Source: Verrucomicrobium sp. (GTDB taxonomy: Bacteria; Verrucomicrobiota; Verrucomicrobiia; Methylacidiphilales; GAS474). Taken from it: DNA of 64,000 bases. The position numbers and the translations under genes were made by a program. The notes under the pieces were generated by a model, which worked only from the letters and a program-made list of their open reading frames with translations, was not told where the DNA came from and searched no databases. Below are positions 7,287-51,483 of the stretch, in pieces; the first letter of the stretch is position 1, and every line of letters begins with the position of its first letter. The stretch covers positions 1,116,001-1,180,000 of the forward strand of contig JAPWJX010000003.1 of assembly GCA_028283855.1 (NCBI GenBank), in the 5' to 3' direction.

Positions 7287-7321
7287 TACGACCGTATTAT
7301 ATTAAAATACGATCGTATTTT
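7287..7321. promoter_or_regulatory. tandem palindromic operator for the TetR repressor
   Basis: AAAATACGATCGTATTTT (7304-7321) is an 18-bp perfect palindrome. TACGACCGTATT (7287-7298) is a one-mismatch copy of TACGATCGTATT (7308-7319), 21 bp away, that is two helical turns. The pair lies between the divergent tetR and efflux starts in an AT-rich stretch that must also hold both promoters. Binding by the adjacent TetR protein is inferred from position and symmetry. Confidence 0.75.
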
Positions 7322-7346
7322 AAACAACAATCGCACCCTCACCGAT

Positions 7347-12397: not shown

Positions 12398-12467
12398 GAA
12401 AACGCGCGGAGCCGGGGGGATTCGAACCCCCGATACGATTTTACTCGTATAACGGTTTAGCAAACCG
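12398..12467. repeat. left attachment site (partial tRNA-Ser copy)
   Basis: These 70 bp are identical to 51386-51455. They contain the T-arm, variable arm, anticodon arm and 3' acceptor of the tRNA-Ser but stop before the D-arm; the following bases (TTTAAAACCC) are phage sequence, so no functional tRNA is made here. This is the displaced chromosomal 3' end after integration. Confidence 0.93.
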
Positions 12468-12556: not shown

Positions 12557-12874
12557 CTACAGGCGTTCGGCCAGGTCGTCGATGAGGGAGCCTATGGAGA
12601 GCACTTTCTTCGTTTTCCCTACCCTGGCCCGAAGCTTCCGCAGGGTTGTAGGCTTTACCCGGCAGGAGAGCGGAACCCGTAGGAGATCGACCGGCTTTGG
12701 CTTCCTGCCCGCCCCAGGACGAGCGCCACCGCGCCGAATCTCGGCTACTTTGCGGCTGGCGGCTTCCAGGAGCGCGGCCTTGCTCTTGGCAGAAGCTGGC
12801 TTCCACTCTCCGCGCAGCACTTCTTCCTCAATGCGCCGCTCTTCGGCAGTCAGTTTAAATTTCTTATTTTTCAT
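12557..12874 (-). CDS. putative antitoxin (BrnA-like position)
   Basis: 105 aa, strongly basic. The middle RRGGARPGAGRKPKPVDLLRVPLSCRVKPTTLRKLRARVG has the GRP-x-GRKPK and V-P-x-S-x-R-V-x3-T pattern of ribbon-helix-helix-type DNA-binding antitoxins. Its start overlaps the upstream BrnT-like toxin stop by 11 nt, matching the toxin-first order of BrnTA operons. It would neutralise the toxin and repress the pair. I did not see a full classical BrnA signature. Confidence 0.55.
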   Translation of the reverse strand: MKNKKFKLTAEERRIEEEVLRGEWKPASAKSKAALLEAASRKVAEIRRGGARPGAGRKPKPVDLLRVPLSCRVKPTTLRKLRARVGKTKKVLSIGSLIDDLAERL

Positions 12875-13139
12875 ATTTTTTCCTCATTTTTCGGCTGGGA
12901 TAGGCCGTCACGATTCTAGCAACTTTCCCGCGCCATTCGATCACCGCTGCCCACACATCGCCCTTGCATCGCACGATTAGGAAGCTCTGACCAGTGCGGG
13001 CGGGATTATCGATAAGGTCGATGAATCCACCTTCGTGCAAGGCTGTTGCGATGTCCTCAAAAGAGGCTCCGCGTTCGGCCTTGACCTTGGCGCTCTTGTC
13101 TTCGTCCCATTCCATCCGCATGAGTGGACTATTGCGCAT
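12864..13139 (-). CDS. BrnT-like (DUF4258-like) toxin
   Basis: 91 aa. MEWDEDKSAKVKAERGASFEDIATALHEG matches the BrnT start, which is W-D-x-x-K-x3-N/K-x2-K-H/RG-v-s-F-x-x-A. The C-terminus WAAVIEWRGKVARIVTAYPSRKMRKKYEK matches the closing strand of BrnT/DUF4258 proteins, a RelE-like ribonuclease fold. An internal ATG eight codons in (MEWDED) would fit the family start equally well. BrnT cleaves RNA and is inhibited by BrnA; here the pair sits directly inside attL, as phage maintenance or defence cargo often does. Confidence 0.65.
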   Translation of the reverse strand: MRNSPLMRMEWDEDKSAKVKAERGASFEDIATALHEGGFIDLIDNPARTGQSFLIVRCKGDVWAAVIEWRGKVARIVTAYPSRKMRKKYEK

Positions 13140-13169: not shown

Positions 13170-13895
13170 TTATTTAAACCCCGCTGCAGCCCATGACAGC
13201 CATTTCCGCAACAGCAGCACCCCCACACAAACAAGAATTACCCAAAGGTAGGATCGGCTCCGCTTATCCCTGCTCGGAGGGCTCTTCAACTTTACGGTGA
13301 TCTTCGATGATCGGGTGTCTTGTGTTTGGATATAAAGATTCGGATGGAGTCGGTATTTCGCGGTTTCCCAGGGTTCGGGAACGTGGAAGGAGCGTGGCTT
13401 GATGTGGATGAGATCGAGCGCCTCATAACATTCCTCTCTCCGCATATTACGCCAGTCGTAGCCGTGGTATTCTAGGCAGGCGCGTTGCTTGGGGGTGACG
13501 CCAGAATGAATGATGTCATCGATTATGCGAGAGGCGTCCCCCTTAGTTGCGCTCGCTGGCAGACATATGCCGCGGGACTTGAGGAGATATTCTCGCTGCT
13601 TATCGGTAGCTGGATCATTTCTCCAGGCGTTTGATGCTGGATTGGCTGGGGCGTATTGATGGACGGGATGCCCCGCTTGCTCGGCCCTGTAGTTATCTAG
13701 CCTACGTAAAGCGGCAATATTCGCCGTAGGCATTCTATAAATCACCACGCCATGACACGGCGTGAGGTCTTGCTTTATGGATGGGAGATTCTTTTTTAAG
13801 ACTTTCCCGGGGGGCGGATCATCTGGAGATCCCTCCTGCGCCTCCCTCTCCCATTCGGCCAAGGTCTTCTTTGGCCGCCTTTGCCTTTTGGGCAT
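13170..13895 (-). CDS. tail-anchored hypothetical prophage protein with duplicated helical motif
   Basis: 241 aa. The N-terminus is basic and Pro-rich (MPKRQRRPKKTL), and a single hydrophobic helix lies at about residues 217-229 (SYLWVILVCVGVLLL). Between them are two related helical units: ATDKQREYLLKSRGICLPASATKGDASRIIDDII and VTPKQRACLEYHGYDWRNMRREECYEALDLI. Both share a T-x-K-Q-R-x3-L pattern. I know no function. Its place in the repressor-side, minus-strand lysogeny cluster makes a superinfection-exclusion or lysogenic-conversion role possible, as inference only. Confidence 0.6.
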   Translation of the reverse strand: MPKRQRRPKKTLAEWEREAQEGSPDDPPPGKVLKKNLPSIKQDLTPCHGVVIYRMPTANIAALRRLDNYRAEQAGHPVHQYAPANPASNAWRNDPATDKQREYLLKSRGICLPASATKGDASRIIDDIIHSGVTPKQRACLEYHGYDWRNMRREECYEALDLIHIKPRSFHVPEPWETAKYRLHPNLYIQTQDTRSSKITVKLKSPPSRDKRSRSYLWVILVCVGVLLLRKWLSWAAAGFK

Positions 13896-13929: not shown

Positions 13930-14490
13930 CTATGCCTTCGGAACGATGGCGTGGAAGACTCCCTGCGCTTCGAGCTTTTCGCGGGGGATGATGTCCCGAA
14001 AGCGCGGGTGAGGATTGATCGACCGGAGAAGGTGGATGCCCTTCTTCATGATGTATTTTTTCAGCGTGACTCCATCGCCGTCCACATGGCCGACGACGAT
14101 GTCTCCCGGCTTTGGGTCTTTCCGAACCACGATGATGTAGCTCCCGTCCGGGATATCCGGCTCCATCGACTTTCCGTTTACACGAAGAACATACGCGTCC
14201 TTTCGCAGGTTAGGGGGGAGCATGTTTTCGGGGATTTGTATCCGCTTGCCGCCGGACTCCTCTTCATGGATCGGGCTTCCGGCGGGAACGGAACCGCGCT
14301 CGATTAAATAGAATCCCTGCTTTGGCTCTTCGATGTCTAAGGCTCCCTGACTCCTCAAGAAGGAGACGGTTCCCATTCTAAGCACGTCGCTGGGGTCCAG
14401 GCGGTGATACTGGGCGTATTTCTTAACCGCCTCCAGATCGGTTTCTGACAGGCGAACCGTGATTCTCTCGGTGAGCTTATCACTCTTCAT
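13930..14490 (-). CDS. prophage repressor: ribbon-helix-helix domain fused to S24 (LexA/CI-type) autoprotease
   Basis: 186 aa. The N-terminus KLTERITVRLSETDLEAVKKYAQYHRLDPSDVLRMGTV reads as a ribbon-helix-helix unit rather than the HTH of lambda CI or LexA. The C-terminal two-thirds is an S24 protease: Ala-Gly cleavage site in SVPAGSPI, catalytic Ser in VNGKSMEPDIPDGS, catalytic Lys in GVTLKKYIM. Such proteins self-cleave on RecA filaments after DNA damage, so this is the probable SOS-sensitive lysogeny switch. It is divergent from a 58-aa ribbon-helix-helix protein, with palindromes between. Confidence 0.85.
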   Translation of the reverse strand: MKSDKLTERITVRLSETDLEAVKKYAQYHRLDPSDVLRMGTVSFLRSQGALDIEEPKQGFYLIERGSVPAGSPIHEEESGGKRIQIPENMLPPNLRKDAYVLRVNGKSMEPDIPDGSYIIVVRKDPKPGDIVVGHVDGDGVTLKKYIMKKGIHLLRSINPHPRFRDIIPREKLEAQGVFHAIVPKA

Positions 14491-14498
14491 TGTTTCAC

Positions 14499-14556
14499 TT
14501 TGTCGGACAAAAAGCGCGGTTTGTCAATTTTCCATATTGCGCGATTGTCCGACATT
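14499..14556. promoter_or_regulatory. divergent early promoters with two palindromic operators
   Basis: TTTGTCGGACAAA (14499-14511) is a perfect 13-bp palindrome about a central base; ATTGTCCGACATT (14544-14556) is a near-copy, and a half-site TTTGTC lies at 14520-14525. On the minus strand TTGACA (14527-14522) is a consensus -35 placed 17 bp from GACAAA, which is part of the first palindrome. On the plus strand TTGTCA (14521-14526) is 17 bp from ATTGTC in the second. Each operator would thus cover a -10 element. Confidence 0.65.
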
Positions 14557-14571
14557 TGGCATTAGAGCGGC

Positions 14572-14748
14572 ATGTCTTGTAAAACTCGATTCACGTTTCG
14601 AGTCCCGGAAAACATCGGCGAAGCCCTCCGTTCCTACTGCGAATCGGAAGACCTCTACCCCTCCCAGGTGATGCGGCGCGGACTGCGCCAGGTGATTCCC
14701 GATAAGTTTTTCGTCAAGGACTCCACCGGAAAGCGTCGCCGGAAATGA
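14572..14748 (+). CDS. small ribbon-helix-helix protein (Cro-like position)
   Basis: 58 aa, first gene of the rightward early transcript and divergent from the repressor. RFTFRVPENIGEALRSYCESEDLYPSQVMRRGLRQVI fits a ribbon-helix-helix fold: an alternating strand, then two helices, with S/P-x-x-x-x-G-L/M spacing. The tail is basic (STGKRRRK). The pairing of two ribbon-helix-helix proteins across shared palindromes suggests this is the Cro analogue. Its TGA overlaps the next ATG (ATGA). Confidence 0.65.
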   Translation: MSCKTRFTFRVPENIGEALRSYCESEDLYPSQVMRRGLRQVIPDKFFVKDSTGKRRRK

Positions 14749-14969
14749 CTACCCCCTCCATAGATCCGGTGTGGGTTGGCATCAAGTGGGTCGTAAAGCA
14801 CACCGGACATAGCCGCTGGACGATCAACCGATGGGCCAAGGCTGGGAAGATTCCGGCCCACCGCCGCAAGGGCGCGCGCCATTGGCGCTTCGAATCATCG
14901 AAGGTTAAGGTCTGGTGGGCTGCTGCCTATAACGGCGCTCCCAACCCGGAAGAGAAAGGCTCGAAGTGA
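14745..14969 (+). CDS. helix-turn-helix excisionase-like protein (HTH_17 / MerR-type)
   Basis: 74 aa. WVGIKWVVKHTGHSRWTINRWAKAGKIPAHRRKGARHWRFESSKVKVWW is a typical winged MerR-like HTH of the excisionase/DNA-binding family, with the W-x-R/K-x-G-x-I-P turn and the R-x-W-R-F wing. Candidate roles are Xis, acting with the integrase, or an early regulator. Translationally coupled at both ends. Confidence 0.75.
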   Translation: MTTPSIDPVWVGIKWVVKHTGHSRWTINRWAKAGKIPAHRRKGARHWRFESSKVKVWWAAAYNGAPNPEEKGSK

Positions 14970-15960: not shown

Positions 15961-16944
15961 ATGTCCGAAAATTCCCTAATCCCCGCTTCCTCCAAGGCTC
16001 CGATCCTTTCCGGTGATCGCGGCCTCAAGCTTTCCAACCTCGACGAGATCTGGCGCTTCGCCACCGCCGTCTCGAAATCTGGCCTTGCCCCGAAGGGCAT
16101 CGACACGCCGGAGTCGATCACCGTAGCCCTGCAAATGGGTGCGGAGCTTGGCCTGCCGCCGATGGCGGCGCTTCAGAACATCGCCGTCATCAATGGTCGC
16201 CCCTCCGTTTGGGGAGACGCCCAGCTTGGCATCGTCCGCGCTACGGGCGAGTTGGAGGAGTTTGAGGAGTGGTTTGAGCAGGGCGGCGAACGCCTTGATC
16301 GGAACCCCTCCAAGTTCGACGAATCCACCGCCGCCGTCTGCCGGGTTCGGCGCAAGGGCTACGCCCAGGCGCAGATCACGGCCTTCTCGGTGGAGGACGC
16401 CAAGCGGGCGAATCTGTGGGGCAAGACAGGCCCCTGGAGCCAATACCCCGCCCGGATGCTTCGCTTCCGCGCCCGGTCCTTCGGCCTGCGCGATCAATTC
16501 GGAGATGCCCTGCGCGGCCTGCTGACCGCCGAGGAAGCTCGCGATATTGATCCGGTCGAGGCCGCTCGTCCGGTCTCCGGCACGGTGGTCGATACTGGCA
16601 AGCCCTCCTTCAAGGACTCCCTGGGAAAGAAGGCCGCCGAGCCGGTAGAGGCGTCGGTGGAAGCGGCGGTCGAGCGCATCGATCAGGCCGCTCCCGAACC
16701 CCAGGACAATCTCCGCTTCGAGGAGGAATCCGCCGCGCCTGAAACCCCGCTCCAGCGTCTCCTGGTCAAGGCCGCCGACTACGGCAAGGACGAGATCGAA
16801 GAGCAGCTTGGGGTGATTCAACTCGCCGGGAAGCGGTGGGCGCAATTCAATGACCGCCGCTTCAAGCGGTACGCCGACCTCTCGGCGGAACTCCAGGACA
16901 CCCTTGAAAAGGGCTTCGACGCTCTCATGGAGGGCGGGAAGTGA
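15961..16944 (+). CDS. recT: RecT-family single-strand annealing recombinase
   Basis: 327 aa. The block IWRFATAVSKSGLAPKGIDTPESITVALQMGAELGLPPMAALQNIAVINGRPSVWGDAQLG is the typical core of phage RecT proteins, and the later KTGPWSQYPARMLRFRARSFGLRDQFGDALRGL fits the same family. It would anneal complementary single strands in homologous recombination. The exonuclease partner follows with a 4-nt GTGA overlap. The C-terminal 120 residues are acidic and variable, ending in a helical segment. Confidence 0.85.
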   Translation: MSENSLIPASSKAPILSGDRGLKLSNLDEIWRFATAVSKSGLAPKGIDTPESITVALQMGAELGLPPMAALQNIAVINGRPSVWGDAQLGIVRATGELEEFEEWFEQGGERLDRNPSKFDESTAAVCRVRRKGYAQAQITAFSVEDAKRANLWGKTGPWSQYPARMLRFRARSFGLRDQFGDALRGLLTAEEARDIDPVEAARPVSGTVVDTGKPSFKDSLGKKAAEPVEASVEAAVERIDQAAPEPQDNLRFEEESAAPETPLQRLLVKAADYGKDEIEEQLGVIQLAGKRWAQFNDRRFKRYADLSAELQDTLEKGFDALMEGGK

Positions 16945-17819
16945 TCTCGCCCGGTATCTATCACGACATGCCGGAGGGTGAATACCACTCTGCCCCCGGC
17001 GTCAGCGCCACCATCCTCAAGGCTATGCGCCGCTCGCCCGCCCACATGCGGGTGAAGCTGGCCGACCGGGAGGACGAGGACACGCCCTTCGGCACCATCT
17101 TTCACCGTAGGATGCTCGAACCCGAGCGGTACAAGGCCGAGATCGTCATCATCCCGCCGGACGCTCCCAAGCGGCCCACGGAGGCCCAGCGGAACGCCGC
17201 CAAGCCTTCGCCCAAGACCCTGGAGCAAATCGCCTGGTGGGCCGACTTCGACGCGAAGACCGAGGGCAAGGAGATCATCTCCGCCACCGACGCCTCGAAC
17301 ATCGAGAAGATGGCTATGGCGGTCCTCGGCCACCGCATCGCCGGGGAAATCTTCCGGTCGGAATACCGCACCGAGGTTTCCCTCTTCATCGACGATCCGG
17401 TGACCGGCCTGCCGATCCGCTGCCGGGTCGACCTCCTTAGCGGTGTGGTCATGGTCGACATCAAGACGACCTACGACGCCTCCGACTGGCAGTTCGCCAA
17501 GATCATCGACCAGATGGGATACCACCTCCAGGCGGCCCACTACATGCGGATCGCCACCCTCCTCGGCCTGGCGCCGGAGCGGTTCATCTTCATCGCGGTC
17601 GAGGCGAAGCCGCCCTACGGCGTGAATACGTTCGAGATCGGCGCCGCCTCCCTGGCAAAGGGCGACGAGGAGTGCGCGAGGCTCTTGGCCCTCTACAAGG
17701 AGTGCGTCGAAAAGGACGCCTGGCCCGCCTACGAGCAATCCCTCCGCGCCATCAACATCCCTCGGTACGCCCTGACTCGTGAGCAGGACGCGGAGGTCAT
17801 CTACTCCCCGGAGGACTAG
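16941..17819 (+). CDS. RecE-like PD-(D/E)XK exonuclease
   Basis: 292 aa, GTG start coupled to recT. The N-terminus PGIYHDMPEGEYHSAPGVSATILKAMRRSPAHMR matches the phage nuclease group near RecE C-termini, with an S-x-T/S-x-L-K-x2-R-x-S-P-A-H. The catalytic site appears as CRVDLLSGVVMVDIKTT (D...D-x-K) followed by QMGYHLQAAHY. It would resect double-strand ends to produce single strands for RecT. Confidence 0.85.
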   Translation: MISPGIYHDMPEGEYHSAPGVSATILKAMRRSPAHMRVKLADREDEDTPFGTIFHRRMLEPERYKAEIVIIPPDAPKRPTEAQRNAAKPSPKTLEQIAWWADFDAKTEGKEIISATDASNIEKMAMAVLGHRIAGEIFRSEYRTEVSLFIDDPVTGLPIRCRVDLLSGVVMVDIKTTYDASDWQFAKIIDQMGYHLQAAHYMRIATLLGLAPERFIFIAVEAKPPYGVNTFEIGAASLAKGDEECARLLALYKECVEKDAWPAYEQSLRAINIPRYALTREQDAEVIYSPED

Positions 17820-18776: not shown

Positions 18777-18838
18777 AGGTCTACATCTCCGGCCCGATCT
18801 TCGTCGGGTATCGGCTGTTGGAAATGGGGGGGGTGTGA
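18773..18838 (+). pseudogene. 21-codon remnant of a DUF4406-like gene
   Basis: The GTG overlapping the previous TGA begins MKVYISGPIF, the standard N-terminus of DUF4406 / nucleoside deoxyribosyltransferase-like proteins (usually 100 aa or more). After ten residues it switches to [11 protein letters not shown] and stops. The DNA coding GYRLL (GGGTATCGGCTGTTG, 18806-18820) recurs exactly at 23596-23610 in another gene, so this looks like an illegitimate junction that removed the rest of the gene. An eight-G run lies at its end. Confidence 0.5.
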
Positions 18839-19827
18839 GCCGTGCTTATTACAACGAGATCGAACCCTATGCCGCGAAGTGGCTCCGCAACCTCATCGCA
18901 GCAAGGCACATTGCCCCTGGCGATGTCGACGAACGAGACGTGCGCGACGTGCGGCCTGCCGATCTCGGCGGCTACACGCAGTGCCATTTCTTCGCTGGTA
19001 TCGGCGTCTGGTCGGCAGCGCTCCGAGGCTCGGGATGGCCGGACGATGTGCCTGTGTGGACAGCGTCGTGCCCTTGCCAGCCTTTCTCCTCGGCAGGCCG
19101 GGGGCTTGGATTTGATGACGAGCGGCACTTATGGCCGCACTTCTTCCACCTCGTCCGCGTCTGCCGCCCTGGCGTCCTCTTTGGTGAGCAGGTTGAAAAG
19201 GCGATTGGGTTCGGCTGGCTCGATCTTGTTCAAGATGACCTGGAAGGAGAAGGCTATGCCTTCGGGGCGGTTGGTTTCCCTGCTGCGAGCGTCGGTGCGC
19301 CACACATCCGAAGCCGAATTTACTGGATGGCCAACGCCAACTTGCCCTTCCCAAAACGATTCAGAGAAGTCTTCGGGGATGGGAAGGATCAGAAAGGGCT
19401 ACGGCCTGGATCTTCCAGCGGCGGCGTCCCTGACCTCGTGGCCGACTCCAAGAACGAGCGACGGAAACGGCTCGAAAATTCCGCCGAATCGTCTGGGGGG
19501 GGGGGCAGCGCTCAATACAGTGGCGAGTTGGGCAACCCCATCAGCTCGGGACTGGAAATCGGATCGGTCCAAAATGAACAGCAAAGGCCTCTACGGATCG
19601 AAGGGGCAGCCCTTATCGAGGCAAACCCTCTACGCGGATTCTGGGGAAACGCCGAATGGATCTGGTGCAGAGACGGCAAATACCGGCCTGTTGAACCCGG
19701 CACATTCCCGCTGGCTCATGGGGCTGCCTCCCGAGTGGGACGCCTGCGCGCCTATGGCAACGCCATCAACAAGGAGCAGGCGCAAGCGTTCATTAGAGCC
19801 TATCTCGACCTCGAAAGGGGCCGCTGA
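18835..19827 (+). CDS. C5-cytosine DNA methyltransferase (Dcm type), frame 1 of an overlapping pair
   Basis: 330 aa, GTG start. The C5-MTase motifs appear in order: motif [11 protein letters not shown], motif [15 protein letters not shown] with the catalytic Cys, motif VI-like [10 protein letters not shown] (ENV changed to EQVE), motif VIII-like [13 protein letters not shown], a target-recognition region of about 120 residues, and motif [26 protein letters not shown]. The segment [25 protein letters not shown] is typical of phage members. Likely role: modify phage DNA against restriction. The same DNA is open in a second frame with its own conserved features, and an 11-G run lies at codons 221-224. 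Confidence 0.85.
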
Positions 19828-19831
19828 ATGA
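18842..19831 (+). CDS. second protein overlapping the methyltransferase gene in the +1 frame
   Basis: 329 aa, GTG start 7 nt into the methyltransferase gene; the frame stays open to a TGA at 19829-19831 that overlaps the Dam start. It has repeated W-[PA]-T-P units ([33 protein letters not shown]), the block [39 protein letters not shown], and a C-terminus [21 protein letters not shown] remember these as conserved in phage proteins encoded at cytosine methyltransferase loci. Translation in vivo is not shown by sequence alone. Function unknown; inner Met codons could also serve as start. Confidence 0.6.
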
Positions 19832-20646
19832 AGCCCCGACCCCTTCTTCGCTACCACGGCGGCAAGTGGAGGCTGGCTCGCTGGATCATCAGCCATTTCC
19901 CGGATCACCGAATTTACGATGAGCCGTATGGAGGGGGCGCATCCGTACTCCTGCAAAAGCCGCGCTCCTATGCCGAGGTCTATAACGACCTCGACGGGGA
20001 GTTGATAAATCTCTTTCGCGTTGTCCGCGATGATGGGGATGAGCTGCGCCGCCTTCTTGAACTGACCCCATTCAGCCGGGACGAGTTCCAGGACAGCTAC
20101 GAGCCATCCAGCGATCCGATGGAGCAAGCGCGGCGAACGCTGGTCCGCAGTTTCATGGGTTTCGGCAGCAACAGCCACACCAAGGCCACCGGCTTCCGCT
20201 CCTGCTCCAACCGCTCGGGGACGACGCCCGCCCACGATTGGCGGAACTACCCCGAAGCCCTGGCCCATACCATCGAGCGGCTGCGCGGGGTCGTCATCGA
20301 AAACCGGGACGCGGTGGAGGTGATGCGGCAGCACGACTCGCCATTCACCCTTCACTATTGCGACCCGCCCTACGTGCCGGAGACGCGCGATGCGGGCGGC
20401 GATTACCGCCACGAGATGACGGTGGAAGATCACCGGGCCCTGGCGGCCGCCCTCCGGGAGTTGAAGGGGTGTGTCGTCATCAGCGGCTATCCCTCCGCGC
20501 TCTACGACGAGGAGCTTTTCCCGGATTGGCACCGCATCGAACGGTCGGCCCTGGCCGATGGCGCCGCCAAGAGGCGGGAGGTCCTTTGGTTTTCGCCGAG
20601 GGCCGCAGCCCGTCTGGACCTGCCTCAAGAACTCTCTTTCCAATGA
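19828..20646 (+). CDS. DNA adenine methyltransferase (Dam / D12 class)
   Basis: 272 aa. The N-terminus [20 protein letters not shown] is motif X (GGK), [15 protein letters not shown] is motif I, and [13 protein letters not shown] is motif IV (DPPY), the alpha-class N6-adenine order. It starts right after the cytosine methyltransferase stop (TGAATGA) and overlaps both the previous second-frame stop and the next start, so translation is coupled. Likely protects phage DNA or alters host regulation. Confidence 0.9.
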
Positions 20647-42322: not shown

Positions 42323-43576
42323 ATGGCAGACATTGAAGTGATCGTCACCCCTCCGGCGCAGGTCGTCGTGGAGGTGACGCCCGGCTATCCCGAGGCTGCT
42401 ACGGCGACGGCGGCATCCAACGCATCCGCAACTTCCGCTGCGGCTGCTGCGGTGTCGGAGGCGAATGCCGCTGCGTCGGCGGCCACAGCAACTACGGAGG
42501 CCGGTATTGCTACCGGTAAGGCCTCTGATTCCGCAACTTCCGCTGCGGCTGCTGCGGCGTCGGAGGCGAATGCCGCTGCGTCGGCGGCCACAGCAACTAC
42601 GGAGGCCGGTATTGCTACCGGTAAGGCCTCTGATTCCGCAACTTCCGCTGCGGCTGCTGCGGCGTCGGAGGCGAATGCCGCTGCGTCGGCGGCCACAGCA
42701 ACTACGGAGGCCGGTATTGCTACCGGTAAGGCCTCTGATTCCGCAACTTCCGCTGCGGCTGCTGCGGTGTCGGAGGCGAATGCCGCTGCGTCGGCTACTG
42801 CTGCTTCAGGTTCGGCTACGGCCGCCGCGGCTTCCGCCGCCTCCATCGCCAACCAGCAGTTACACGGTCAATGCCGCCTAGATTTTGTCAGCTCGACGCA
42901 GGTTAAGCTTTCCCCGTTTAATGGAAACCGAATCATTATCGACAACGTGGCGCAGCAAATCCCCGCCACGGCCCCGACTCTTTCCAATTCCGGCATAGGG
43001 AATTTGACGGCCCGATACGTGTATGTGGGGATGGTGTCCGGGGTTATGACTCTTTCCTCCTCAACTACAGGGTATGCCACAGACCCTCGGAACGGGGTGC
43101 TCGTTTTAAGCGGTGATGCCACGAAAACGTTTGTTGGGATGGTCGGCACGGACTCCTCTGGTCTCTTTCAGGACAGCGTTACCGCTCGGCTCGTAAAGAG
43201 TTTCTTTAATCAGAAACGGATGGGGTTGTATGCCTATTTCACATACTCAACCTCATCCACTTCGTGGGTTGAATTATCTTCGTCTTCCCGAGTCTATTTT
43301 CTTGGGGACGGGAAATCGGGGGATTCGTTGGCCGCCGCGACCATAGAATATATTCAAACCGCGAATGACGTTTTCTGTTATTTCGCAATGGGCATTAACG
43401 GCGCTACGAATGGAGGCCCAACAACCTGTAAGCAATATACCGCCAGGGAAATAACCCAGCCTGTAAATCAGGTCCAGGCAAGCAGCACGGGCATTAATTA
43501 CTTTTCGGCGTTCGGGTATGTGGCGTCCGGCTCATATTCTGGATGGGGCACCGTTTGGGGAAGCACCATGGTTTAA
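42323..43576 (+). CDS. second tail fibre with near-identical 35-residue Ala-rich repeats
   Basis: 417 aa. Residues 30-170 contain four copies of a 35-residue unit (A/S-rich with E-x-G-I-x-T-G-K), which should form a helical or coiled shaft. The C-terminal 240 residues are beta-rich and Ser/Gly/Thr-rich (TLSSSTTGYATDPRNGVLVLSGDATKTFVG) and probably form the trimeric tip. AT content rises towards the end, suggesting exchange of the host-range part. Confidence 0.75.
   Translation: MADIEVIVTPPAQVVVEVTPGYPEAATATAASNASATSAAAAAVSEANAAASAATATTEAGIATGKASDSATSAAAAAASEANAAASAATATTEAGIATGKASDSATSAAAAAASEANAAASAATATTEAGIATGKASDSATSAAAAAVSEANAAASATAASGSATAAAASAASIANQQLHGQCRLDFVSSTQVKLSPFNGNRIIIDNVAQQIPATAPTLSNSGIGNLTARYVYVGMVSGVMTLSSSTTGYATDPRNGVLVLSGDATKTFVGMVGTDSSGLFQDSVTARLVKSFFNQKRMGLYAYFTYSTSSTSWVELSSSSRVYFLGDGKSGDSLAAATIEYIQTANDVFCYFAMGINGATNGGPTTCKQYTAREITQPVNQVQASSTGINYFSAFGYVASGSYSGWGTVWGSTMV
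42428..42835 (+). repeat. 105-bp tandem repeats in the fibre gene
   Basis: About four units with a 105-bp period (unit borders near 42428, 42533, 42638, 42743). The inner two are identical as far as I compared; the outer two differ by single bases such as GCGGTGTCG versus GCGGCGTCG. The period is a multiple of three, so unit gain or loss keeps the frame. Confidence 0.9.
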
Positions 43577-50067: not shown

Positions 50068-50083
50068 CACTGGTCGGATTTCC
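50068..50083 (-). repeat. module-boundary repeat, inverted partial copy 5
   Basis: On the minus strand GGAAATCCGACCAGTG, identical to the other copies over the first 15 bases. It lies in the 45-bp gap between the gpD stop and the convergent integrase stop, at the junction of the tail module and integration module. Confidence 0.7.
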
Positions 50084-51237
50084 TATTTGGGGCGCAGCGC
50101 GAACCAGGCCTCTCCATCCGTCCTTTTCAGGGCGCGAATGTAATGCTGGCGAGCCACCGTCTCACTGTTCCCCATGTTTTGCGCTAAGGCGGCTGCTCCC
50201 TTCTCGGGATAGGCGGCCAGGAAATAGCTCGCGTAGGAGTGGCGAGGCGCATTGTCGGGCCATTCCTTCAGGCCAGCCGCCTCGACCAATTTCCCACGAC
50301 CGGCGTAGAACTCCCGAATTGGACAGTCGACGACTCGACCGGATTTCTTCGCCATGGGCTCGATCCAGGCGCGCAGAGCGTCGGTGATTGGAACCCATCT
50401 CTCATTGTCTCGTTTCCTAGTCTTCTTCGCCACCTCACGGCGGATGTGAATGGTTCCCTCCTTCCAGTCGAAGTCGGACCATTCCAGGACCGGCCTTTTC
50501 CATCCGGGGGGCACCATCTCGCAGGAGCGAATCCCGGCGAAGCATCCGAGCGCCAGGACAACGCGATTTACTCCCTCGGCCGCCTCCAGCATATCGACAG
50601 CCTCGGATTCCTTTAGGATATCGGGTGGCCGGTATTCGACGGTAGGCCGCTGCACGATCCGATTGGGCACCTTCATTGGGTGCTGGCCAATGTGCCCACG
50701 CTCTATTGCGAAATTGAAGAAGCCAGATAGGGAGAGGTAGTGGTTTAGGCGGCTTTGCTGGTCGGGGATGGCGTCGAGATAGCGGGTTATCGTTTCCGGC
50801 CCGATGGCGTCGGAGGAGTAGGCCCCGTGCTTGGCTGCAAATGATGCCAGGCGCGACTTTAGCGTGCTACGGTGACGCAAGCCGCTCCGCTTCACCTCGG
50901 CATGGAATTTCAGGAAGAGGTCGATCAAGTCGCTCACCCGTACGGCATTCTCGGCCATGGGGGTATCCTTGAAGCGTCGGATGGCATCTAGGAGCTGGTC
51001 GGCAGAGAGCCCCTCCTTCCTGGCCATCGACAACGCCAGGCGCTCGTCCTGGGAGATGGCAGCTCCGCGTCCATGCTCGGCAATCGACTCTTCCAGTCGG
51101 GTTTTTTCGTCCTGGGCAGCCCGCCGTGTGGGGAAGAAATACCTTTCCACTTTACCGCTCTGGCTGAATTTCGATGGTACCCGGAGCATCATTTTTCCTC
51201 GGGCGGCTTGGATGGTAATTTTGCTGGGGCGTCCCAT
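50083..51237 (-). CDS. tyrosine integrase
   Basis: 384 aa. N-terminal arm-binding and SAM-like core-binding regions (about 80-180) precede the catalytic domain. Arg I in CFAGIRSCEMVPP, the beta-sheet Lys in REVAKKTRKRDNERWVPI, box II NAPRHSYASY with Arg (His of HxxR replaced by Asn), and MGNSETVARQHYIRA with the nucleophile Tyr (usual GH replaced by GN). The GN variant is common in such prophage integrases. It lies beside attR with the intact tRNA and is transcribed towards the phage interior. Confidence 0.92.
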   Translation of the reverse strand: MGRPSKITIQAARGKMMLRVPSKFSQSGKVERYFFPTRRAAQDEKTRLEESIAEHGRGAAISQDERLALSMARKEGLSADQLLDAIRRFKDTPMAENAVRVSDLIDLFLKFHAEVKRSGLRHRSTLKSRLASFAAKHGAYSSDAIGPETITRYLDAIPDQQSRLNHYLSLSGFFNFAIERGHIGQHPMKVPNRIVQRPTVEYRPPDILKESEAVDMLEAAEGVNRVVLALGCFAGIRSCEMVPPGWKRPVLEWSDFDWKEGTIHIRREVAKKTRKRDNERWVPITDALRAWIEPMAKKSGRVVDCPIREFYAGRGKLVEAAGLKEWPDNAPRHSYASYFLAAYPEKGAAALAQNMGNSETVARQHYIRALKRTDGEAWFALRPK

Positions 51238-51385: not shown

Positions 51386-51455
51386 GAAAACGCGCGGAGC
51401 CGGGGGGATTCGAACCCCCGATACGATTTTACTCGTATAACGGTTTAGCAAACCG
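51386..51455. repeat. right attachment site, 70-bp core
   Basis: Perfect copy of 12398-12467, here continuing into the 5' part of the tRNA so the gene is whole. The crossover probably falls in the anticodon-arm region, which is a frequent target of tyrosine integrases. Confidence 0.93.
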
Positions 51456-51483
51456 CCGCTTTCGGCCACTCAGCCACAGCTCC
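51395..51483 (-). tRNA. tRNA-Ser(GCT)
   Basis: Read on the minus strand it starts GGAGCTGTGGCTGAGTGG and ends CCCCGGCTCC plus discriminator G; acceptor pairs GGAGCTG with CGGCTCC. The anticodon loop TTTGCTAAA gives anticodon GCT. A long variable arm (TTATACGAGTAAAATCGTAT) and the T-loop TTCGAAT are typical of tRNA-Ser. CCA is not encoded. The prophage supplied the 3' part on integration. Confidence 0.95.

Follow-up and report, generated by a model that had tools for sequence, protein, structure and literature searches.

The stretch of DNA analysed here (the window; 64,000 nucleotides on contig C3 of genome G000, which comprises 2.56 Mb in 9 contigs) harbors a whole prophage of about 39 kb (12398-51455) with a contractile tail, as judged from its genes for terminase, portal, head, sheath, baseplate and tape measure. 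The prophage is bounded by two identical att copies of 70 bp (12398-12467 and 51386-51455), the second of which overlaps the tRNA-Ser(GCT) gene (51394-51483), and between them are also found head protein/protease and endolysin-like genes as well as the gene for an integrase (50083-51237, minus strand; phrog_1, 6.7e-21). At the point where the leftward and the rightward genes part lie two divergent open reading frames with start codons 81 bp apart, one for a protein of 186 amino acids, the repressor (13930-14490, minus strand), and one for a protein of 58 amino acids (14572-14748, plus strand). The repressor gene is followed on the same strand by that of a 241-aa protein (13170-13895) to which no Pfam family was matched. 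On the other side the gene for the 58-aa protein heads the early operon, of which the third gene of the switch region encodes a 74-aa HTH_17 or excisionase-like protein (14745-14969, plus strand; HTH_17, 4.1e-7; phrog_66, 4.2e-9); ORFs without a clear family and the genes for a RecT-like annealing protein (15961-16944, plus strand; phrog_561, 5.1e-38) and an Exonuclease VIII-like protein (16941-17819, plus strand; phrog_412, 5e-74) come further downstream. We take the locus to be the immunity region of this prophage, which looks intact.

Downstream of the repressor gene, at 12557-13139 on the minus strand, there is a gene for a BrnT-like toxin (E = 4.2e-8, just under the cut-off), and after it an ORF of 105 amino acids whose end looks RHH-like (RHH for ribbon-helix-helix) by eye, with no Pfam match; the two are possibly a toxin-antitoxin moron. 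Also by eye, the early operon seems to contain adjacent cytosine and adenine DNA methyltransferase genes (18835-20646), and a predicted tail-fibre-like protein with alanine-rich repeats is encoded at 42323-43576. At 7302-7323 a perfect 22-bp palindrome, TTAAAATACGATCGTATTTTAA, stands ahead of an efflux-type operon. Its core ATACRATYGTAT was found at only one other place in the genome, ahead of the lexA-like gene (at most one mismatch allowed; reversed control 0), so lexA and the efflux operon may have an operator in common.

The repressor is composed of an N-terminal RHH head (residues 1-49), a linker and an S24 autoprotease domain (residues 66-178), as delineated with Pfam and AlphaFold2. The family Peptidase_S24 matched residues 66-178 with E = 3.1e-20 and 72.4 bits, the cut-off being 23.3. 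In an alignment of the window repressor with four repressors of the Akkermansia lineage (alignment A1) the columns of A70-G71, S108 and K144/K145 are invariant. From this and from the reading of the sequence, A70-G71 (codons 14278-14283, minus strand) is predicted to be the site of self-cleavage, S108 (14167-14169, minus strand) the nucleophile and K144 (14059-14061, minus strand) the general base; by analogy with LexA/CI numbering it is K144 rather than K145 that we take to be the catalytic lysine. The AG cleavage site and the Ser/Lys dyad that the initial annotation had ascribed to the repressor are thus all present. A single-sequence fold of the whole repressor reached a pLDDT of 44.8 and is of use for secondary structure alone.

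More unusual is the other end of the protein, which had been read as RHH rather than helix-turn-helix (HTH). An AlphaFold2 model of residues 1-49 (14344-14490, minus strand), calculated as a monomer from an alignment of three sequences (the window head, the head of the 58-aa protein and that of an RHH protein from the viral contig L228), had a pLDDT of 87.5 and showed an extended N-terminus followed by helix A (residues 16-29) and helix B (residues 33-48). The fold is strand-helix-helix, with the strand at about residues 9-15 (R9-T11-R13) extended and unpaired since the model is a monomer. When the model was compared with the PDB by Foldseek, CopG came first, followed by Arc, AmrZ and PutA, with TM scores of about 0.6-0.8 and probabilities near 1; for so short a domain the E-values were 0.076 at best, and none of the 107 matches fell below E = 0.001. 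Pfam matches of the head were weak and RHH-type (DUF6290, 3e-4; RelB, 4.6e-3), both below their cut-offs, and a sequence search of the PDB with the head yielded designed and LRR proteins only and no RHH chain. In a viral structure library the matched entries were mostly unnamed or RHH/CopG. One record there is labelled helix-turn-helix, and this label is what speaks for a classical HTH protein mistaken for RHH. Against such a mistake stand the modelled fold itself and its best PDB matches, and also the behaviour of the LexA- and CI-type proteins among the 206 S24 ORFs considered below, which gave no match to the RHH profile. We consider the HTH reading very improbable, and on the model it is already largely refuted: the structure prediction gave RHH and no classical HTH. 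Residues 1-49 are accordingly best described as a predicted RHH head, a supported assignment that sets the repressor apart from canonical LexA and CI with their N-terminal HTH or winged HTH.

The 58-aa protein matched the Pfam family RHH_9 with E = 0.002, below the cut-off. When the genome was searched with it, the sole other place resembling it was the head of the repressor (37% identity over 35 residues, E = 0.33). A local alignment of the two gave a score of 57, a value that none of 2000 shuffles attained (mean 20.7, sd 4.0). The RHH head, the S24 autoprotease and the divergent RHH partner named in the initial annotation thus each find support in independent evidence, and the head of the partner is homologous to that of the repressor. 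In both proteins the predicted DNA-reading strand has the form R-x-T-x-R (R6-T8-R10 in the 58-aa protein). In the RHH family, as in Arc and MetJ, the residues of the strand contact the bases, and thus both proteins of the window should read the same DNA. The resemblance of the heads could also mean that the 58-aa protein swaps its ribbon with the repressor head, so that heterodimers would form instead of a competition for operators. RHH dimers have an intersubunit ribbon in common, and 37% identity over 35 residues would suit such an exchange; homodimers, however, are the rule in the family, and we regard mixed dimers as distinctly unlikely.

The 81-bp gap contains two operator candidates. O1 (14499-14511), TTTGTCGGACAAA, is a perfect palindrome located 8 bp from the start codon of the repressor gene; O2 (14544-14556), ATTGTCCGACATT, located 15 bp from the start codon of the 58-aa protein, has a mismatch in the second pair from the ends and a perfect inner part, TGTCCGACA. 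In the whole genome of 2.56 Mb the pattern TTGTCSGACAW is found twice only, at O1 and at O2. Dinucleotide shuffles of the gap contained two sites with at most one mismatch from TTGTCNGACAA in 0 of 50000 cases. The predicted prophage operator is unlike the palindrome in the promoter of the host lexA gene. An extra half-site, TTTGTC (14520-14525), overlaps a minus-strand TTGACA (14522-14527), possibly the -35 element of the repressor promoter. At a distance of 17 nt from TTGACA the hexamer GACAAA, inside O1, agrees with the -10 consensus in 3 of 6 positions, and a consensus promoter scan of both strands found no promoter. Of the earlier statement that the palindromes overlap two -10 elements, with a TTGACA on the repressor side, the palindromes and TTGACA were borne out and the -10 elements turned out to be weak, which leaves it half supported. 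Should the TTGACA/GACAAA promoter be genuine, the repressor would be translated from an mRNA with almost no leader.

When 116 related genomes were searched with the repressor head and, separately, with the 58-aa protein, the two matches (E = 0.002 and 38% identity for the head; E = 3.3e-12 and 55% identity for the 58-aa protein) lay 120 bp from each other in genome G016 (locus L217). There a 57-aa RHH protein without an S24 domain stands divergently opposite a 69-aa RHH protein, with a gap of 83 bp between them and a CHC2 primase-type protein encoded downstream of the pair. TTGTCTGACAA is present in the gap without mismatch, and TTTGTCTGACAAA begins 9 bp from the start of the repressor gene; TTGTCNGACAA appeared in 28 of 100000 shuffles of this gap. 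That the sequence recurs unchanged in another divergent RHH pair, from a related genome, strengthens the operator claim; L217 has one clear operator versus two in the window. Since the L217 repressor lacks S24, the design common to the two loci does not include the autoprotease, and in the group to which both loci belong other routes of induction must exist. It could be argued from this that also in the window S24 is an oligomerisation module only, induction proceeding via an antirepressor or another proteolysis. We find this rather improbable in view of the cleavage site and dyad, all of which are kept, and of the RecA encoded by the host genome, which also encodes its own LexA-like protein (L002).

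Looser matches were obtained in G025 (L218; E = 0.019 and 0.004) and G195 (L225; E = 0.003). Each of these loci has a divergent pair of small RHH-like proteins, the gaps being 83 and 80 bp, respectively, and three of the four proteins are at or above the cut-off of RHH_1: the minus-strand protein of L225 is above it (24.2 versus 20.5) and the plus-strand proteins of L218 and L225 are at it. In L225 the 8-mer GTCTTACA is present three times, a triple reached in 24 of 20000 shuffles. A 7-mer repeat in L218 lacks significance, with 7701 of 20000 shuffles reaching it. Directly behind the L225 pair (L225:3395-3601) a Bro-N antirepressor-like domain is encoded. On the viral contig (L228) a plus-strand RHH protein was found, just ahead of whose gene lies a long palindromic stretch, GGGCGTTATAC..GTATAACGCCC (L228:2926-2950); the minus-strand partner is RHH-like by eye and has no Pfam match, for which reason L228 was left out of the count of proven pairs. 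The profile of the 58-aa protein also matched in G259 (L227) and in G182, in the latter within a long ORF lying across from a probable gene, and this match was rejected. A viral scan with A3 gave no match. Together the loci suggest that switches of the divergent RHH/RHH type form a group in the related genomes; how phages are regulated in such hosts has, to our knowledge, been little studied.

In L218 and L225 the strand residues differ between the two partners (T-x-S versus S-x-R). This lends something to a logic of the Arc/Mnt kind, in which the two RHH proteins of the window have separate sites, or in which the 58-aa protein controls its own gene without antagonising the repressor; autoregulation is frequent among RHH proteins. 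In the window, however, the R-x-T-x-R motif is found in both strands and the two sites are copies of one palindrome, and we therefore hold this alternative to be rather unlikely.

The fusion of an RHH head to S24 appears to be rare, as the initial annotation had supposed. With a profile of nine heads and a threshold of E ≤ 10, an RHH match was obtained in 1 of 206 distinct S24 ORFs, a set gathered largely by S24 similarity and not at random, and this one is the window protein (the set comprised 217 ORFs before duplicates were removed, with the window protein present seven times via overlapping loci). Profile A6 found a head-like match in 28 of 384 genomes of the class, with strong scores at L217, L218 and L225 by construction, since it was built from these loci; among the central ORFs at the A6-matched loci (mainly plus-strand frames read, so that coverage of some loci was incomplete) S24 was seen in the own genome only. 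Of 387 genomes of the phylum, a set overlapping that of the class, the own genome alone passes 1e-6. A full-length search of the 116 relatives and the 384 class genomes gave S24-only matches beyond the own genome, and among the matches listed none outside it starts before residue 38. Full-length relatives were found neither in viral contigs (single-protein query) nor in plasmids; the phages contributed two partial S24 matches and the genome contigs two S24 matches. When the fetched loci were compared by BLAST, the alignment with one LexA (L021) began at residue 19. In a viral sample collected by DNA patterns (120 loci with 87 S24-like ORFs, at least four of them incomplete) no RHH-only N-terminus was recognized by eye. 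A second RHH-S24 protein, which could show selection on the fusion, was not found in the genomes searched, nor did the literature on ribbon-helix-helix and peptidase S24, with subscription papers mostly outside the scope of the search, yield an RHH-S24 repressor.

In a tree of 96 S24 domains (141 columns, long branches; one further row, L036, is the window protein itself) the window domain groups with 18 repressors of the Akkermansia-phage type (97/93). The 46 rows labelled LexA form a separate group (98/93), outside of which the window domain falls, and on this grouping a derivation of the domain from the host LexA was rejected. The nearest S24 lineage is that of the Akkermansia phage Chambord type repressor (ON453894.1; same node, 97/93), which begins with an HTH-like domain, unlike the RHH head of the window. 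Because the Akkermansia-phage-type relatives carry an HTH-like domain at their N-terminus, an exchange is the simplest story: an RHH repressor of a kind that is found by itself elsewhere was fused to an S24 domain from a phage. A loss of S24 in G016 is the less simple alternative. The Akkermansia-lineage phage repressors (L038-L051, L009-L015) look mosaic, with varying N-terminal and middle segments and a nearly constant S24 domain. The middle segment of the Chambord type repressor looks RHH-like by eye and matched neither Pfam nor the RHH profile; the idea of an HTH-RHH-S24 architecture in the Akkermansia-type repressors, supported by neither, was abandoned.

With CI/Cro of lambda the window shares a divergent repressor and small antagonist with the operators between them, and with both CI and LexA an S24 repressor with an AG cleavage site and Ser/Lys dyad; the heads are RHH here and HTH there, and the two clear operators contrast with six in lambda. 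The best structural matches of the head are found in CopG-type plasmid copy control and in the CopG/RelB antitoxins, which are not phage switches and are not known to carry S24. In the immI region of P22, RHH phage repressors, Arc and Mnt, likewise control one region, there without a protease domain. According to PMC8022706, immI consists of mnt-arc-ant and is a second immunity region controlling an antirepressor, whereas the window switch fronts an early operon; what lies downstream of it (HTH_17, ORFs without clear family, RecT and exonuclease) is unlike P22 ant. YosL of SPbeta is an Arc-type RHH protein according to PMC10516654, which mentions Arc and Mnt of P22 alongside. In UmuDAb of Acinetobacter, as in the window repressor, an S24-type autoprotease is joined to a further DNA-binding domain at the N-terminus, in this case possibly HTH according to PMC7273328.

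We propose that the locus is the SOS-inducible lysogeny switch of a contractile-tail prophage, in a host that is related to those of the Akkermansia phages and probably verrucomicrobial, and that in it the logic of CI/Cro is executed by RHH proteins, a reading to which we give a probability of about 70%. In the lysogen the RHH-S24 repressor would bind to O1 and O2, one at either end of the 81-bp gap, and thereby silence the rightward early operon (that of the 58-aa protein, the HTH/excisionase-like protein, RecT and the exonuclease) while keeping its own production in check. By reading the same operators, the 58-aa protein would act as the Cro-like antagonist. Upon DNA damage RecA filaments would trigger self-cleavage of S24 at A70-G71, which would part the head from the domain expected to give cooperativity, and the early operon would open. 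Binding, repression, antagonism, cleavage and induction are all inferred from the features described above.

The heads of HTH repressors dimerise well only with the help of the C-terminal domain, those of RHH proteins without it. The design therefore raises the question how cleavage inactivates a head that is expected to dimerise alone. The conservative answer is that the cleaved repressor loses the cooperativity mediated by S24 or that the fragment is degraded. A bolder answer, which we offer as speculation and think improbable, is that cleavage turns the repressor into its own antagonist: since RHH heads self-dimerise, self-cleavage at A70-G71 is expected to free the first 70 residues as an RHH dimer, which would mimic Cro at the same operators. 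Such a fragment would be similar to the Cro-like protein of 58 amino acids as well as to the repressor of the sister locus L217, which consists of RHH alone (57 aa). If true, this would be a damage-driven switch logic that HTH repressors do not offer.

In the proposed CI/Cro-type switch two textbook classes of repressors are combined in one protein, and comparison with the sister locus that lacks S24 may show a phage switch before and after it acquired SOS inducibility.
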